A stretch of 64,000 nucleotides of DNA from Phototrophicus methaneseepsis (GTDB lineage Bacteria > Chloroflexota > Anaerolineae > Aggregatilineales > Phototrophicaceae). Under the pieces are notes generated by a model. That model saw only the letters and a list, made by a program, of their open reading frames with translations, made no database searches and was not told where the DNA came from. The stretch's first letter is position 1. Each line of letters opens with the position of its first letter. This document shows, in pieces, positions 18,982 to 26,824 of the stretch. Both the position numbers and the translations under genes were made by a program. The DNA is taken from positions 3,782,001 to 3,846,000 of the forward strand of contig NZ_CP062983.1 of assembly GCF_015500095.1 (NCBI RefSeq), in the 5' to 3' direction.

Positions 18982-18996
18982 TGCCACAACACAATT

Positions 18997-19021
18997 AGAC
19001 CGACCTTGCTAAGGTCGGTCT
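18997..19021. terminator. Hairpin between convergent GH16 and S8 genes
   Basis: Perfect 11-bp arms AGACCGACCTT and AAGGTCGGTCT flank a GCT loop, 16 bp after the GH16 stop; the 3' end overlaps the S8 gene's stop codon. There is no T run, so it is a likely but imperfect terminator. Confidence 0.72.
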
Positions 19022-20615
19022 ATCTGATTGACTCCCCTGCCCTAACAGCCTGCCGCATAAACTCTACGGAACAGGTTGCGGCACAACTTCTTGCTGCTGC
19101 ACCATCAATCTGTGGTAAATCTGTCTTGAGCTTCGTATTTGCTTCTGCCGCTGTTAACCCCCGCAGGCATAACCACGCCATATATCCCGTGACAACTGCC
19201 GTCGCAAATGAAGTCCCGGCCCATTGGGCGATACCGCATGTATTATCGATTTGTTTACCATTTTCCAGATTGATGAAATCATTGATGAACAAACCCAACA
19301 AACCTGCATTCGCTGTGCCACCATAGGCATAAATGCCGTTATCTGTCACGATATCGAGGCGATCGAGAGATTCCTGAATCGCGGCGATCTGTGGGATCTG
19401 CGGCAAATTCGAGTAATCGGTCCGCATACCATCGGAGCGAACAGCCCCCACGCCAACGACACCCTTCATATATGCTGGGAACTTAGGCCACGGCGGGATA
19501 ATCGTACTTGTCCAGTCGTTGCCTGCTGCCACGATCAACCGCCGATCTTCTGCCGCGAAGTTCGCCACCGTATTACGGACATTATCGGGTATGCCATTCA
19601 TTTCGATAAGCTGATCACGAATAAAATCGGAGACAACGGGCGCATTACGACCCTCTGCCATCCCCAACTCCTGGAGAACTTTCTGCGTCAATTCGGTAAT
19701 GTCATCAACACCAAACATCAAACGCGCATTCGCACTCAGATTCACCAAAACCTGCGAGCCTTGTAGCGCCTTGTCTTGCGCTAGCTCATTTAGAACATCC
19801 GCAACAGTAAATATCGACCCTACCCCAACACGCGACATCACGGGGATAATGGTCACATTCGCTTCCGGCGCAATCGTCTTGATGATGCTGGCAATGAAAA
19901 TGCCATGATTCGAGATACTCTGAACAGGGGTCGGGGCGCGGCTACCCATGTCTACAAATGCCACCTCCTCAATCGGAATAGGCGATGGATCTGCAATAGT
20001 CTCACTCAAAAATCGCTGTACAAATGGGAAGACCCCACTTATGCCCTCAAAATCATTAAGCCGATGGCGAAGCTGCACATCATGATTCATATCAAATGGG
20101 CTGGTATCCAGCACAAACACATTGACTGTACGCCCGGCTATCGGCTGTAAAGATTCACCCGCATCATTAACCAGCACGAGATCATTGGCAACAAAACGAA
20201 TATCTTTATCGCACTCCCCAACTGCCTGGGGAGTAGTACCCGGTCCGCCTGTCGTAGAAGGTCCTGGTGCACTGCCAGGCCGCGGAATGAGCATTTCGAA
20301 TGAGGGTACCGCATTCGATGTTTCCGTCTGAGGTAAAACATCTGGCAAGCGTCTCACCGCAGAAAAATCTGCTGGTGGGGGATCCGGTACGGGTGCGTCA
20401 GGCTCAGGTGGTTCCGGGGATGGCGCGTCTTCAAAGGGGAAGAAAATCAATCCGGCGACCTGATCTATTATGATAGCCTCGTTCAGTACAGCGATATTCT
20501 GGTCCGCGAGATGCCGTGATACGCCAGCTACAATCATACTCGCGTCCACCAACGATGGGTCAAATCGAACTTTTAGCCCAGGTGCTGTTAGCGCCTGAAT
20601 CGGACTCGACATCAT
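19020..20615 (-). CDS. Subtilisin-like S8 serine peptidase with N-terminal adaptor region
   Basis: This 531-residue protein (from ATG 20615; ATG 20612 is equally good behind CAGGAG) has no signal peptide and is probably cytosolic. A roughly 70-residue N-terminal domain of unknown type is followed by a Pro/Glu/Asp-rich linker (about 72-95) and a second low-complexity Pro/Gly stretch, then the S8 domain. The catalytic triad is complete: D170 in VFVLDTSPF, H237 in SNHGIFIAS and S469 in AGTSFATAVV, with the oxyanion Asn in VAAGND. The His-Ser spacing (232 residues) is longer than in classic subtilisins. It is the last gene of the XRE/unknown/CHAT operon, which suggests it is a target or partner of the CHAT protease. 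Confidence 0.9.
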   Translation of the reverse strand: MMSSPIQALTAPGLKVRFDPSLVDASMIVAGVSRHLADQNIAVLNEAIIIDQVAGLIFFPFEDAPSPEPPEPDAPVPDPPPADFSAVRRLPDVLPQTETSNAVPSFEMLIPRPGSAPGPSTTGGPGTTPQAVGECDKDIRFVANDLVLVNDAGESLQPIAGRTVNVFVLDTSPFDMNHDVQLRHRLNDFEGISGVFPFVQRFLSETIADPSPIPIEEVAFVDMGSRAPTPVQSISNHGIFIASIIKTIAPEANVTIIPVMSRVGVGSIFTVADVLNELAQDKALQGSQVLVNLSANARLMFGVDDITELTQKVLQELGMAEGRNAPVVSDFIRDQLIEMNGIPDNVRNTVANFAAEDRRLIVAAGNDWTSTIIPPWPKFPAYMKGVVGVGAVRSDGMRTDYSNLPQIPQIAAIQESLDRLDIVTDNGIYAYGGTANAGLLGLFINDFINLENGKQIDNTCGIAQWAGTSFATAVVTGYMAWLCLRGLTAAEANTKLKTDLPQIDGAAARSCAATCSVEFMRQAVRAGESIR

Positions 20616-20650
20616 ATTTCTCCTGAATAGGTGTTGCAGTACAAAAGCGA

Positions 20651-23422
20651 TTAAAGAGGATGTGTATTCCCTGAAAGCTGGAATGCCCCCCAATAAGCCG
20701 GATGATGAAAACGCTCATCATGCATCAACTTGATCTGCGTATGCTGCATGGCGTTCGATTTTGTAGCCCCCTGCCTCAGACGCGCATAAAACCCATCTGT
20801 AAATGCTTCTGCCGCTGCGTCGTCTACATCCCACAAACTGCTGACCAACGCTTGAGCACCTGCGTAAAGAAAGCTATGTCCTAACCCAATCAGTTCATCA
20901 CCGCCGGACGGATGGCTAAACCCCACGCTACAAGCACTCAACATTACGAGATCGTAGCTCAGGTCAAACTGCCACAAGTCCTCCATAAACAGCAATCCGT
21001 CGGCCAACTTTAAGTGCGATAAGCGCGGCTGATTTAAGTTATGTTTGCCATGTGCCGCGAGATGTAAGACTTGGCAGGCCGATGTCGATAGCTGCTGACT
21101 GACTGCTTGAACCCCCACAAAGCAACTCCCCCCAAGGACATCTGCAATCCGAGATGCCTCCCTCTCCATACGGAACTCACTATTCCCCCCGTTATATCCA
21201 AGCGCCAACAACCCAGCCTTATCGGGTTGACTTTGCGCATGTCGATAACCACTCGCAGGGCGCAGCACAATCTGCAGCTGCTCCACCAGGTATTGATGAT
21301 CGTCATAAAGCATATGAAATGGTATCAGGTGCAAGATGCCATAAGGAACGACCAACAACGACTCATAACATTGGGTAAAATCTCGCACAGGCAGCAGCAA
21401 GGCATCATAAAGCTGCTTCAATAAACGGTTGGTCTGGTCAAGATATAATTGCTCGGCATCCACTGGGCCCACAGCCAACGCACGACCTATTGAGCGCCGG
21501 AACTGACGCAACAAAGTATCAATACCTTCATAAGTCACGCCTTCTAGCAAGAGCACGTGTAAATCAGCATCATGGGCCAGCGTAAAAACATAAATATGCT
21601 GTCCATCGCTATAATATTCGACCATGCCCATACCCATCGTCATGGAGGCTCGCACATCGTCAAGCGTTGGTGCAATCGTTTCAAACGCTTGTTGCGGCCA
21701 CTGCAAACGCATCTCTGCAAGCAAATCTGTCATACGACGCTCAAGTGCTTGCTTTTCTTCGTTGTACGCATCAGCATCTATTGTTTGGTTTACGAGTTCG
21801 AGATAACGCTCGCGGGCGACTTGCAATGCTGCCTCAGCTTCCTGCTGCTGATTATCCTGCGATAAGCGCCGGGACCGCGTTTCGTGCAGGTGCTGCTGCA
21901 CAACGAGAGATTTCATCTCCTCCAATGTGCCAAAAGCCGCCTCAATCTGTCTTTGCTGCAATGAAATCCCGATGAGACGATGCAAAGCATCCTGAGCACT
22001 TTCCAGGTAGCCAGGGCGATAATCCTGCGTCAGCCCGCGTTGAACCCTAAGCACACGCTGATTCGCTCGTCGATAATGGGCGACGGCTTTGTCCAGGCGT
22101 TGGTCCGCCTCTCGTACAGCACCCAACAAGATCAAAGCCTGATAGCGAAGCAGTTCCATACCCAATTGGCGAGCCGCCATATAGGCTTTTAGGGCCGCTT
22201 CCTTAGCCTTCTTGAACTGCTGAGCTCGTAAAGCCGCAGTACCTAACACAAGATTGGCCCGAGCAATAACGTATCTCGTCTGGCCCTGAGCTGCCTTTTC
22301 AGCATCCATCATGGCCGCTTCAAAATCGCCCGCTTTAAGGTGGACATAAGCCCTACGGGCATACGTTTCTAACAAAAGCTCTTGCGAGTCATCCTCTTGC
22401 AAGATGACTTCAGCATGATTGAACGAGTCAATCGCTAAAGCATAATCGGATAGTTCAGCAAGGCTCTCGCCCAGGTACATATAAATCGTCGCTTGGTCTA
22501 AGCGCGTGGCATTAACATGAGCAAATAGGAGCTGCCGAGCCGTGTCTTGGGCCTTCTGATGCGCACCCAATAGCTGGAAGCAAATAATCTGATTACAGCT
22601 ATTCGTCACCTGCATAAACGCATCCAACTCAGCATGGATGGACTGCATAAGATAGAGTGCCTGCCGATAGTCCCCCTGCAACATCCACATTGACGCACGA
22701 TTGGCGACGACCCTTGCGACCTCAAAAGGCTGGCCGAATTCAACGAACAGCGCCTCCGCACGCCGATAGCAATCCAGCGCAGCGGTATAATGCCCTTCAG
22801 ATTGTTCCAAAATGCCCAGGTTTTGCAGTAAGCGCGCATGATGCACGCTTCGTTCTTCATTAATCAGGTCAATAGCAAAGACCAGGGCATCGCGCGCCTG
22901 TTGGGATTCAGAGCGCCATTCATGGAAAGCAGACAAATTGACAGAAAGTCGCACGAGGAAATCAATTTCCTGATGGCGGAGAAAAATATGGCGAGCCTGT
23001 TCCACATCCACAAGCGCTTTTTGCAGGGCTTCTGGGCCCATTTCCTGGCTCGTCAGCAACCGGCCAATGCGCGTCCGTGCCCATCCGACCTCATCCCCCA
23101 TGGCTTTGAATATGCGACCCGATTCTTCTAATGTCGTATGCGCTTCCTGGATGCGCTGCATAAACCGCAGCGCATCGCCTTTCGCCATCATCCCCATTGC
23201 ACGATACTGCTCATCTGACGCCAGATCACCTAATGCGATCATCAATTGTGCAATCACGTAAGAAACACGCGGGTCTTTACCCCAATGCAAATCAGCTTGC
23301 TTCTTTAATTGTGATAGCAACAAAGGGCGGTTTGATGGATCAGCAGCAGAGCTAACCATGCTCATCAGAGCATCGGGGAGGCATTCAAGTTCAGAGAATT
23401 GAGGCGTGATGTAGTCTGACAT
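20651..23422 (-). CDS. TPR-CHAT protein (caspase-like cysteine protease domain)
   Basis: This 923-residue soluble protein is built of tetratricopeptide-like helical repeats at about 60-500 (repeats visible around HYTAALDCYRRAEALFVEFG, YALAIDSFNHAEVIL and DFEAAMMDAEKAAQ), a coiled region, and a C-terminal CHAT domain at about 600-915. The caspase-type dyad is intact: H791 in LHLAAHGKHN and C831 in MLSACSVG. The block GGDELIGLGHSFLYAGAQALVSSLW is the standard CHAT signature. TPR-CHAT proteins act as regulated proteases, for example the Csx29 subunit of type III-E CRISPR complexes, and other CHAT proteins sit in conflict systems. The gene follows the unknown gene by 6 bp and precedes the S8 gene by 35 bp. 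Confidence 0.92.
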   Translation of the reverse strand: MSDYITPQFSELECLPDALMSMVSSAADPSNRPLLLSQLKKQADLHWGKDPRVSYVIAQLMIALGDLASDEQYRAMGMMAKGDALRFMQRIQEAHTTLEESGRIFKAMGDEVGWARTRIGRLLTSQEMGPEALQKALVDVEQARHIFLRHQEIDFLVRLSVNLSAFHEWRSESQQARDALVFAIDLINEERSVHHARLLQNLGILEQSEGHYTAALDCYRRAEALFVEFGQPFEVARVVANRASMWMLQGDYRQALYLMQSIHAELDAFMQVTNSCNQIICFQLLGAHQKAQDTARQLLFAHVNATRLDQATIYMYLGESLAELSDYALAIDSFNHAEVILQEDDSQELLLETYARRAYVHLKAGDFEAAMMDAEKAAQGQTRYVIARANLVLGTAALRAQQFKKAKEAALKAYMAARQLGMELLRYQALILLGAVREADQRLDKAVAHYRRANQRVLRVQRGLTQDYRPGYLESAQDALHRLIGISLQQRQIEAAFGTLEEMKSLVVQQHLHETRSRRLSQDNQQQEAEAALQVARERYLELVNQTIDADAYNEEKQALERRMTDLLAEMRLQWPQQAFETIAPTLDDVRASMTMGMGMVEYYSDGQHIYVFTLAHDADLHVLLLEGVTYEGIDTLLRQFRRSIGRALAVGPVDAEQLYLDQTNRLLKQLYDALLLPVRDFTQCYESLLVVPYGILHLIPFHMLYDDHQYLVEQLQIVLRPASGYRHAQSQPDKAGLLALGYNGGNSEFRMEREASRIADVLGGSCFVGVQAVSQQLSTSACQVLHLAAHGKHNLNQPRLSHLKLADGLLFMEDLWQFDLSYDLVMLSACSVGFSHPSGGDELIGLGHSFLYAGAQALVSSLWDVDDAAAEAFTDGFYARLRQGATKSNAMQHTQIKLMHDERFHHPAYWGAFQLSGNTHPL

Positions 23423-23428
23423 CAGGCG

Positions 23429-23941
23429 CTATCCAGAGTCTATCTTAACGTCCTTGAGTAGGATTACTTCGTGTGAGGAGGAAATAAACTTCAAAATAGC
23501 TGGTTTGTTACCCTTCAACTGAAGCGTAAAATCCTCACCTTGTGCAATCTCAGCGAAATCTTCAATCACCTCTTCTTGCGATACCAAGACGGTATACTCC
23601 GACCAGGGCGATTTTGTATCTGCATGCAGCACGCCGATAAGCTGTAGCCCTTCACCATGGTGTGCACATTCCAGGACAATCTTAATCGTATGCCCAAGGC
23701 TGTCTTCCGCACTGATGGCAACAGGTGTCTCGCTGATACGGATCTCGCCTTCTAACTCACGCCCTCGTGTCGCGGAACGATTCAACATCGCAGAAAGCGG
23801 CGTTTCCCACTCTGCTTCGGATTCAATCAACCGAGAAAGGAGCGCCTGCGTTTCGTCCATCGCATGATGGTTGGGCCTATTTGTAAGTTCCCGGCTTAAT
23901 CGAAACAGTTTTTCGACATCGTCCAGTTCATATTTTTTCAT
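23429..23941 (-). CDS. Conserved-context protein of unknown function
   Basis: I do not recognise this 170-residue protein. Residues 1-60 look helical and charged, and residues about 65-165 look like a beta-rich globular domain (strands at EGEIRISETPVAI, HTIKIVLEC, LQLIGVLHA, YTVLVSQE, DFTLQLKG, ILKFISS). There is no signal peptide or membrane helix. It overlaps the upstream XRE gene by 14 bp and lies 6 bp before the CHAT gene, so it is translationally coupled and surely functions with them. A substrate, inhibitor or sensor of the CHAT protease are all possible; the sequence does not decide. Confidence 0.75.
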   Translation of the reverse strand: MKKYELDDVEKLFRLSRELTNRPNHHAMDETQALLSRLIESEAEWETPLSAMLNRSATRGRELEGEIRISETPVAISAEDSLGHTIKIVLECAHHGEGLQLIGVLHADTKSPWSEYTVLVSQEEVIEDFAEIAQGEDFTLQLKGNKPAILKFISSSHEVILLKDVKIDSG

Positions 23942-24266
23942 CGTTAAGACCTTGCATTTTCATCACTGTGCAAATGAACGCAGCAACTAAACGTCCGGTC
24001 TGTGATTCCGTACACTCCAGGATGTGGGCAATCCTCGCAATTTGCTGGTAATTCACCCATCGCGGCAGACTCGGTTTTGTAATCAATCGTGAAACGACAC
24101 TATCGCTGTAGCCAATTTGCTGAGCAAACATAGATTGAGTGAGATCTTTTTCGTACAAGATATCGCTCAACGCATCGCCAAAACTGAGAACGTCAACGCA
24201 TTCATCCTGCAGCAACTTTTGTATTCGATGCACGGGTGTTCTCCTCGGGTCATGGGATGCTTTCAT
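23928..24266 (-). CDS. Small XRE-type helix-turn-helix protein
   Basis: This 112-residue protein has one DNA-binding domain at about 35-90: LTQSMFAQQIGYSDSVVSR is the helix-turn-helix, followed by YQQIARIAHILECTESQTGRL typical of XRE/Cro-type domains. It is the first gene of the CHAT/S8 operon. Its start codon overlaps one side of a TTATTA-CC-TAATAA palindrome, and a related half-site lies 20 bp upstream, which points to autorepression. The ATG at 24266 follows AGG at 7-nt spacing within that palindrome, so translation initiation could also be affected by the DNA or RNA structure. It could be either a repressor or an antitoxin-like partner. Confidence 0.8.
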   Translation of the reverse strand: MKASHDPRRTPVHRIQKLLQDECVDVLSFGDALSDILYEKDLTQSMFAQQIGYSDSVVSRLITKPSLPRWVNYQQIARIAHILECTESQTGRLVAAFICTVMKMQGLNDEKI

Positions 24267-24309
24267 TATTACCTAATAAAGACTTTTTGACGAATTGTCT
24301 TATTAGGTA
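24266..24309. promoter_or_regulatory. Inverted-repeat operator of the XRE/CHAT/S8 operon
   Basis: TACCTAATAA (24270-24279) and TTATTAGGTA (24300-24309) are perfect 10-bp inverted repeats 20 bp apart, extended by GAC/GTC after a one-base bulge. The proximal copy is itself part of the palindrome TTATTACCTAATAA (24266-24279) that includes the first base of the XRE start codon and its ribosome site. This suits two adjacent binding sites of a dimeric XRE regulator, or an mRNA hairpin covering the start. Confidence 0.75.
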
Positions 24310-24511: not shown

Positions 24512-25063
24512 ATGGAAGTTTCTGTTGTGGAGGCCGTTGCACCATTATTGATGCTCAGCATTTTGATTGAGCGCCTGCTGGAAGTCGTCTTCATCCTGAT
24601 AGAAAGCGTATGGATTCGCAATCCAAACGATCCATCCTACATCCGCAAGAAAGTGATCTATACGTTGTTCATAGGTGGGGTGATTGGCGTGTGGCTCGCA
24701 GCCACGGCTCAATTGAATTTTTTCCCGGCGTTCGAGTCGCCCATAGGGGGCATTCTTGCAACGGGTATCGTGGGTGGTGCCATTTCACCATATGCGCACC
24801 AGATTGTCGAAGTTCTAACGAAGGCACAGAAGCAGCTCGACCCAGCCAATGATCACCCGCAGGTAGTGGCCGTCGGGGGGCGGCAGCATCTGCAGATCAA
24901 AGCTGACCAGCAGACGATCACCGTTGATAAGGTGGAAAACCACAATCCTACTAATGATGGCTTTGATACTGAACCGCTCAGGCCCATGACAGCTGAACAC
25001 GAGTCCTCCAGCGATCGATCAAAGGCATTTGGGATCCGTGTCGGGCATGCAGAACCAAGATGA
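24512..25063 (+). CDS. Small membrane protein of unknown function
   Basis: This 183-residue protein has three hydrophobic segments at about 5-33, 49-72 and 80-98, and then a hydrophilic, probably cytosolic, C-terminal tail of about 80 residues with a short beta-like stretch (QHLQIKADQQTITVDKV). I do not recognise a family. The ATG follows a very strong site, GAGAGGAGAGG, at 24499-24509. The gene is divergent from the XRE/CHAT operon and precedes the peroxidase gene by 129 bp, so it could belong with either. No signal peptide is cleaved as far as can be seen. Confidence 0.72.
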   Translation: MEVSVVEAVAPLLMLSILIERLLEVVFILIESVWIRNPNDPSYIRKKVIYTLFIGGVIGVWLAATAQLNFFPAFESPIGGILATGIVGGAISPYAHQIVEVLTKAQKQLDPANDHPQVVAVGGRQHLQIKADQQTITVDKVENHNPTNDGFDTEPLRPMTAEHESSSDRSKAFGIRVGHAEPR

Positions 25064-25102: not shown

Positions 25103-25192
25103 TCGCAATATACGAAATGAAAGCATCTCATCGTTCGGCATCTATTTTGAAGCGTAATCAACAAAGCAATGCATACTATGGAAGGGAACCTC

Positions 25193-26824
25193 ATGAAAAA
25201 GTCTAAGATGGCACATCGCAGGCGGGGTCATGGCAGATCCCATTATTATATCGTGGGCGAAGGTATGTGCCCCGTCCAGATTGATTACACCTATGCACCT
25301 GGCGCAGAGAAACCTTATCTCCCGGCACCAGATGATGCTGTCACACCGGAAGGCTCTACCCTAACCTATGAGCCACCACCAGCAGAAGAAATCGAATTCC
25401 GGTTTATGCGCCTCTTCCCGGATGCCGGTAAGTTCGAGCCAGCAGATGCTGCACTCATCGCTCTGGGGCAAGTCATGGAAGACCTAGCCACAGAACAAAT
25501 CGACAACTCCAATATCCCGGCTGGTTATACCTATCTAGGCCAGTTCATCGACCATGACATTACCTTCACAGGTAACGGTGACATCGAAGGCCAAGCGATA
25601 GAACCGCAGAATGTCATCAATCGGCGGTCACCATTCCTGGACCTGGATTCGGTGTATAACGGTGGTCCTGATGTTTCGCCAGCGCTCTATGAAGCGGATA
25701 AGGTTCACTTTAAGATCGGCACGACCCTGGGGCGTCCCTTATTCGGCGTGACGCAATCACTACCAAATGACCTGCCACGTCAGGGCAATGGAAACGCTGT
25801 GCCTAAGCAGGCCATCATCGGCGACCCGCGCAATGATGAAAACCTAGCAGTAGCCCAGATTCATCTGCACATGCTCAAGTTCCATAATAAGGTCGCTGAT
25901 AGTGGCAGCCTGGCGAACGAAACCAATGCCAAGAAACGCTTCGAAGAAGCACGTAAGATCGTCACTCAACATTATCAATCCGTTGTGCTTCACGATTTCG
26001 TACCACGGATTGTCGATCCAGATGTCTACAACGACATCATGGCTAACGGGCGTCACTTTTATTGCCATGACGATCCAAAAGTACCAGCCATGCCTGTTGA
26101 GTTCTCAGTTGCGGCATTCCGCCTGGGCCACAGCATGATTCGCAATCAGTACGAATGGAACCGTGTGTTCAGTACAACCGGGCCCGGCCCTGTCGCATCC
26201 CTGGCACTGCTCTTTGAGTTCTCCCAGCTTTCCGGGGACCTGGGCGGTGACGATACGCTGCCGACGGATTGGGTCGCAGATTGGACGCGCCTGTTCGACT
26301 TCACAGGTGTCAATGGCATCGAGAATAACCCAATTTTCAACTTCGCTCGGTTGATTGATACGCAGTTGGCAACTAAATTGATGGACCTGCCAGAATTTGC
26401 AACGGCTTCTGCACCGCATCTGATGTCACTATCTGTGCGGAACCTGCTTCGTGGGCGCTTAATCGGCCTACCTTCCGGCCAGGAAGTCGCAAAACTGGTG
26501 GGCGCGACTGCCCTGACACCTGATGAAATCAAAACAGGGCCGCATGCAGCCATCTTAGAAGCCAACAACTTCCTTGAGGATACGCCCTTGTGGTACTACG
26601 TCCTCAAGGAGGCACATGTGCAGCAAGGTGGTCAAAAGCTTGGGCAAGTCGGCAGCCGCATCGTTGTGGAAACATTCCATGGCCTTGTTGAAGTCAGCCG
26701 TCACTCCATCTTGCAGGAGCAAGGCTGGGCACCAAGCTTGCCATCAGTCGACCCGGATCGCTTCACAATGGCGGATCTGCTGGCATTCGTTGACGAAGTG
26801 AACCCGTTGGGGGTGGGGAACTAG
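25193..26824 (+). CDS. Animal-type haem peroxidase (peroxidase-cyclooxygenase superfamily)
   Basis: This 543-residue protein matches the bacterial branch of the superfamily that includes myeloperoxidase and peroxinectin. The distal-site motif is YLGQFIDHDITF (distal His about residue 121, with the haem-linking Asp next to it). Further marks are DPRNDENLAVAQIHLHMLKFHNKV and the proximal His region AAFRLGHSMIRNQYEWN. It would oxidise halides or small organic substrates with H2O2. It has no Sec or Tat signal; the N-terminus is very basic (MAHRRRGHGR). The start at 25193 follows GGAAGGGA; the ATG at 25169 is less likely. A good terminator follows. It may act in oxidative defence or in making toxic hypohalites. 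Confidence 0.9.
   Translation: MKKSKMAHRRRGHGRSHYYIVGEGMCPVQIDYTYAPGAEKPYLPAPDDAVTPEGSTLTYEPPPAEEIEFRFMRLFPDAGKFEPADAALIALGQVMEDLATEQIDNSNIPAGYTYLGQFIDHDITFTGNGDIEGQAIEPQNVINRRSPFLDLDSVYNGGPDVSPALYEADKVHFKIGTTLGRPLFGVTQSLPNDLPRQGNGNAVPKQAIIGDPRNDENLAVAQIHLHMLKFHNKVADSGSLANETNAKKRFEEARKIVTQHYQSVVLHDFVPRIVDPDVYNDIMANGRHFYCHDDPKVPAMPVEFSVAAFRLGHSMIRNQYEWNRVFSTTGPGPVASLALLFEFSQLSGDLGGDDTLPTDWVADWTRLFDFTGVNGIENNPIFNFARLIDTQLATKLMDLPEFATASAPHLMSLSVRNLLRGRLIGLPSGQEVAKLVGATALTPDEIKTGPHAAILEANNFLEDTPLWYYVLKEAHVQQGGQKLGQVGSRIVVETFHGLVEVSRHSILQEQGWAPSLPSVDPDRFTMADLLAFVDEVNPLGVGN

Follow-up and report, generated by a model that had tools for sequence, protein, structure and literature searches.

The window analysed here, a stretch of 64,000 nucleotides from Phototrophicus methaneseepsis, encodes on its minus strand an XRE regulator, a 170-residue partner protein (P0003), a TPR-CHAT protease and an S8 subtilisin-like protease in one compact operon. 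The four genes form a single functional, conserved unit, and the operon is a variant of the known sigma/CHAT/subtilase cluster, the context noted for ECF54 sigma factors. It could be a cytoplasmic protease-coupled transcription switch in which an XRE regulator has replaced the ECF-type sigma factor of a sigma/partner/TPR-CHAT/S8 cluster; the prospects of this preferred reading, drawn from sequence and analogy, are judged to be evenly balanced. The most informative part of the operon is P0003, whose kinship places the operon with sigma/anti-sigma control of transcription, not with an executioner cascade. The features of the operon and its divergent neighbour are listed in Table 1.

Table 1. Features of the XRE/P0003/TPR-CHAT/S8 operon and its surroundings in the window.
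Feature	Position	Strand	Basis
Terminator-like hairpin	18996..19022	-	directly past the S8 stop; 12-pair stem; tail without strong T-run
S8 subtilisin-like protease (P0001), 531 aa	19020..20615	-	Peptidase_S8 2e-7; triad D170/H237/S469
TPR-CHAT caspase-like cysteine protease (P0002), 923 aa	20651..23422	-	CHAT 1.2e-52; dyad H791/C831
P0003, partner protein (gene 2), 170 aa	23429..23941	-	gene-2 profile match 19.3 bits; bridges L153, L154, L163; AlphaFold model
XRE/Cro-type regulator	23928..24233	-	101 aa from the more likely start GTG 24233 (112 aa if ATG 24266); Pfam HTH_26 1.6e-4
Inverted repeat, candidate operator	24270..24309		perfect 10-bp arms, 20-bp spacer: TACCTAATAA-N20-TTATTAGGTA
Animal-type haem peroxidase, divergent neighbour	25169..26824	+	PF03098 6.7e-27

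All four open reading frames were found on the minus strand with the spacings given in a first-pass annotation of this DNA: the XRE and P0003 genes overlap by 14 bp (23928-23941), and gaps of 6 bp (23423-23428) and 35 bp (20616-20650) precede the CHAT gene and the S8 gene, respectively, the latter starting at 20615. The genes and spacing of that description stood; the start of the XRE gene was revised, and the inverted repeat and the hairpin, which had been overlooked, were added. Terminator-like sites are overall not enriched in the region. The XRE protein probably starts at GTG 24233, which has AGGAG seven bases upstream, because the operon at locus L153, which is 49% identical, retains this VHRI start and has a ribosome-binding site (GGAGG) of its own before it. 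The 40-bp inverted repeat is a single site in the 5.63-Mb genome, even when 3 mismatches are allowed, and its expectation in shuffles of the window was 0. It is overlapped by sigma-70-like -35/-10 elements at 24293/24265 (minus strand), of a promoter-like kind that shows no enrichment in the region. The XRE protein would bind this repeat as its candidate operator. Inverted repeats were also observed upstream of homologous XRE genes (L154 11037-11100 and L153 4817-4831); the half-sites of L154 (TTACCTATTAC) are similar to the half-site of the window (TACCTAATA), with opposite orientation and another spacing. The matches of the XRE protein to PDC-M69A and other PADLOC models look like generic helix-turn-helix matches and were set aside.

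The active sites of both proteases had been described as intact, and the aligned relatives bear this out. In P0002, in which TPRs were found besides the CHAT domain by Pfam, the aligned relatives are invariant at H791 (99/99 residues) and C831 (98/98), and 96% of them keep D868. In the S8 protease the triad residues (171/238/470 in P0001 numbering) are conserved among aligned relatives in 25/25 (D), 25/25 (H) and 24/25 (S) cases, and the oxyanion Asn in 25/25. By inspection no signal peptide is evident, in agreement with the earlier description, and the sole hydrophobic stretch near the N terminus (residues 41-59, score 1.85) is borderline. The N-terminal part and the catalytic domain are joined by a proline-rich linker with a conserved GGPGT motif, and the structure model is of low confidence over the first 126 residues. 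The earlier parallel with Csx29 of type III-E CRISPR was a good lead, as P0002 matches the Csx29 family model NF041237 at 8.6e-11; the score of 41.4 bits lies far under the family cut-off of 300 bits.

The genome contains a single CHAT match and two S8 matches, one of which adjoins the CHAT gene. Rarity of CHAT-S8 adjacency in other genomes had been named as grounds against the system; adjacency proved almost universal in two scans whose sets share a few contigs. For the S8-first scan, 84,980 species genomes were searched with the S8 alignment as query, and CHAT was called in the 80 resulting loci with profiles from the first sets. A CHAT gene lay at most 3 kb from S8 in 70 of the 72 evaluable loci; two lacked it despite enough flank, and eight contigs were too short to judge. 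The loci with CHAT belong to Chloroflexota, Actinomycetota and Zixibacteria. In the CHAT-first scan, covering 154 genomes of the order, a CHAT match was present in 32 genomes and 29 loci were opened, and S8 adjoined CHAT in 25 of the 26 that could be evaluated; S8 was missing three times by contig end and once by true absence. Among 301 genomes of the phylum a close S8 was found in ten foreign genomes, adjoined by CHAT in five and without CHAT, in a common neighbourhood, in the other five. Loci L032, L033, L034, L036 and L038 represent a second, related S8 lineage without CHAT and with a conserved neighbourhood, in genomes that look Ktedonobacter-like by eye.

Most of the relatives are headed by a sigma factor gene. 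Most Chloroflexota sets have one fixed order, namely sigma, gene 2, CHAT and S8 (14 loci of the S8-first set and most CHAT-first loci). The same four kinds of genes occur in Actinomycetota in many orders and orientations, and this shuffling argues that function, more than an inherited arrangement, holds the genes together; many Streptomyces, Nonomuraea and Nocardioides carry the set on chromosomal contigs. The sigma genes of Actinomycetota and Zixibacteria match the sigma70-ECF model TIGR02937 at 2e-19 (L071) and 4e-20 (L062); of two from Chloroflexota, that of L048 matches it at 6e-5 and that of the more diverged L031 not at all. Gene 2 of Chloroflexota carries zf-HC2 fingers (5e-10). Its counterpart in Actinomycetota, of about 150-170 aa, shares the C-terminal domain, which matches CarboxypepD_reg weakly; a zinc-finger match was looked for in this counterpart and none was found. 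A sigma-headed set is also present in a genome of the same genus as the window (G001, L169 9461-10141), where gene 2 lacks the zinc-finger cysteines and keeps the Arg-Gly of the linker.

P0003 had been called unrecognised, and indeed no match in Pfam or other family libraries names it; it is nevertheless related to gene 2 by profile and by bridging sequences. A direct sequence search for its relatives in the phylum gave noise alone, and its kinship was reached through gene neighbourhoods and profiles. P0003 was not reached by a first gene-2 profile built from four sequences, whereas a later one, made from the last 105 residues of 17 gene-2 proteins of Chloroflexota, hits its residues 85-168 (E 6e-4 with all ORFs searched). 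Gene 2 of L153 matches P0003 at 1e-46, and gene 2 of L163 matches the C-terminal profile at 2e-14 and the full anti-sigma-like profile at 6e-9. Since the profile match is bridged in this way by L153 and L163, sequence comparison identifies P0003 as a homologue of gene 2 in the sigma-headed sets. As this homology extends to the zf-HC2 anti-sigma-like protein of Chloroflexota, gene 2 is a candidate anti-sigma factor. The AlphaFold model of P0003 (mean pLDDT 89.5) shows helices at the N terminus and a confidently predicted beta-sandwich, with a linker of low confidence between them; a fold search with it returned generic Ig/fibronectin-like beta-sandwiches, none at E < 0.001. P0003 gives no zf-HC2 match, and with its single Cys it does not contain the HxxxCxxC finger.

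XRE homologues stand at the head of three other CHAT loci, L153 (G405), L154 and L163 (G444), in the order XRE, gene 2 and CHAT. An S8 gene comes next in L153 and L154, and L163 is cut off at this point by its contig end. Locus L124 (G384), which is counted with the XRE-headed sets, shows gene 2 and CHAT before its contig end. The complete order XRE-P0003-CHAT-S8 is kept in L153 at 49% CHAT identity. In a maximum-likelihood tree of the CHAT proteins, the window, L153, L154, L163, L124 and L155 form one clade (support 97/97), which is nested inside the Chloroflexota sigma-headed CHATs. This pattern is consistent with one switch from sigma to XRE. L155, a CHAT and S8 pair without recognisable XRE or partner, counts against the switch model. 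Genome G444 contains three CHAT sets of the clade (L154, L155 and L163), and a TIR-like ORF was seen by eye upstream of L155. An XRE-type search of 396 evenly drawn genomes of the class revealed no further XRE-headed set; the sole extra XRE match was in G031, with no CHAT set within its short flanks.

The exchange of the regulator coincides with a difference in the linker of gene 2. In alignment A2 the Arg of the Arg-Gly pair is present in 27 of 28 sigma-headed forms versus 0 of 5 XRE-headed forms at that column, a correlation that counts as one event because it is confined to one small clade. This Arg may take part in contact with sigma, or it may mark a cleavage site whose position has shifted. 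Arg-Gly was considered as a universal CHAT cleavage site ('ATRG' in P0003; 69/70 relatives) and is a lead at most, failing in 5/5 aligned XRE-headed forms; a common cleavage site is unsupported because the linker Arg is absent from all five.

The divergent haem peroxidase gene has a 58% identical homologue in G405 (L153 3013-4608), which likewise lies divergently beside the operon there, so that two genera share the arrangement. The gene is absent from genomes G001 and G384 and was not found near other XRE-headed or sigma-headed sets fetched. It is possibly a fifth component, or a regulated gene, of the XRE-headed version. Between operon and peroxidase, a 183-aa protein with hydrophobic stretches and a weak holin-like match below cut-off is encoded at 24512-25063; no counterpart was found in L153. 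Encoded on the flanks are a sugar ABC system together with a LacI regulator, a GH16 enzyme, proteins of the phytoene-synthase/desaturase type and, as an operon, an efflux ABC system. No gasdermin match was obtained among the operon proteins and the 10 flanking proteins scanned.

The view in the first-pass annotation that such a set of genes lacks a described counterpart is not supported. ECF54 sigma factors have a conserved context of CHAT, subtilase and 'carboxypeptidase' proteins, for which proteolytic control without an anti-sigma factor was proposed (PMC8999054, where the context is reported from Huang 2015 and Casas-Pastor 2021). The adjacent TPR-CHAT and subtilase genes of the window correspond to this context, and so does P0003 if 'carboxypeptidase' is read as the carboxypeptidase-regulatory-like beta domain, given its profile match, bridges and beta-sandwich model; Pfam CarboxypepD_reg is weakly matched in its relatives. 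In contrast to the ECF54 cluster, to which the sigma-headed sets were assigned by gene content, no sigma match was found in the operon, an XRE regulator takes the place of the sigma factor, and gene 2 is a candidate anti-sigma factor where the review describes control without one. Neither an XRE-headed version nor gene 2 as an anti-sigma relative is described in the literature searched, the primary ECF papers lying outside that search.

Csx29, also a TPR-CHAT protein, cleaves Csx30, the inhibitor of the ECF-like CASP-sigma, in Craspase (PMC10028731, in which CRISPR-T and its sigma neighbour are also mentioned). Both systems place a TPR-CHAT protein beside a two-domain, linker-containing inhibitor of an ECF-like sigma factor or its relative. 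They differ in the CHAT score, far below the Csx29 cut-off, in the presence of S8 and in the XRE regulator standing in place of sigma; no Cas7-11 was found among 18 window proteins in a general Pfam scan. By analogy, the best model is that the operon would work like Craspase, yet it is not a member. In Myxococcus xanthus, inactivation of DdvA frees its ECF sigma partner DdvS (PMC4374960). A PDB chain named 'CHAT domain-containing protein' (8RLZ, 8ROT) begins with the anti-sigma finger of DdvA, and the 8ROT/8RW5 protein looks as if two parts of the window module had been fused. An anti-sigma domain and CHAT are thus found in one pathway there as well, but fused in one protein and not in separate genes, and we know of no S8 in that system. 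In CalpL-CalpT-CalpS, the type III CRISPR Lon-protease system, a protease likewise releases a sigma factor from its partner, but it is a Lon-like SAVED protease with a cyclic nucleotide as trigger.

In the transcription switch preferred here, the XRE protein would bind the inverted repeat and control its own operon and possibly the haem peroxidase gene. The helical N-terminal part of P0003 would contact XRE in the way that sigma would be contacted by the zinc-finger part, and the TPRs of the CHAT protein would perceive a signal of stress or of an intruder. CHAT would then cleave the P0003 linker, which would alter XRE activity and induce the operon, and S8 would act downstream, where it would either complete the partner's removal or, as an effector, degrade cell proteins. 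Since XRE proteins are often repressors and sigma factors activate, the logic of the switch may be inverted. Anatomy and precedent together suggest that gene 2 would restrain the transcription factor, that CHAT cleavage would relieve the restraint and that S8 would follow; the Csx29-Csx30-CASP-sigma precedent shows that a TPR-CHAT protein can play such a role (PMC10028731). More tentatively, the operon may exemplify a general non-CRISPR signalling module in which TPR-CHAT gates transcription through cleavage of a two-domain partner, the factor being exchangeable (mostly ECF sigma, XRE in one clade) and the linker Arg-Gly being tied to the sigma version, with Csx29/Csx30/CASP-sigma as a CRISPR-captured relative.

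The conflict or cell-death cascade put forward in the first-pass annotation, in which TPR-CHAT would sense an invader and cleave and activate S8, S8 would kill or dismantle the cell, and XRE and P0003 would keep the system silent, is doubtful. It is in keeping with two proteases that have intact sites and no evident secretion signal, with a long S8 linker whose GGPGT motif could be processed, with TPR-CHAT as the activated defence protease of type III-E CRISPR and with the patchy distribution of CHAT in the order. However, no PADLOC system was recognised in the operon and no defence gene among the flanking genes checked, which serve metabolism or transport, the near-constant partner has its kinship with a regulator of transcription factors and not with a toxin, and the Actinomycetota sets sit in chromosomal contigs. 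A defence or death role, drawn from analogy, is accordingly left unsupported. Regulated proteolysis in an ordinary response, such as to oxidative stress or in development, with the haem peroxidase as target and no conflict role, is unlikely: the peroxidase adjoining the operon in two genera hints at a regulated target, and the sigma/anti-sigma heritage and ordinary flanking genes suit this view, yet the peroxidase stays confined to these two settings among the sets fetched, and with the inverted repeat occurring once in the genome no wider regulon is visible. Chance neighbours or a decayed remnant, to which the occurrence of P0003 itself in few genomes might point, are ruled against as highly improbable by the near-universal S8-CHAT linkage across phyla, the conserved catalytic residues, the compact operon and the gene order kept in G405.

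Actinomycetota and Chloroflexota commonly carry the sigma/CHAT/subtilase cluster, which is without characterisation in the literature searched. The exchange of sigma for XRE, with the partner and both proteases kept, offers a direct handle on the targets of the proteases, and the operon provides a non-CRISPR setting for asking how sigma factors fell under the control of TPR-CHAT proteases in Craspase.
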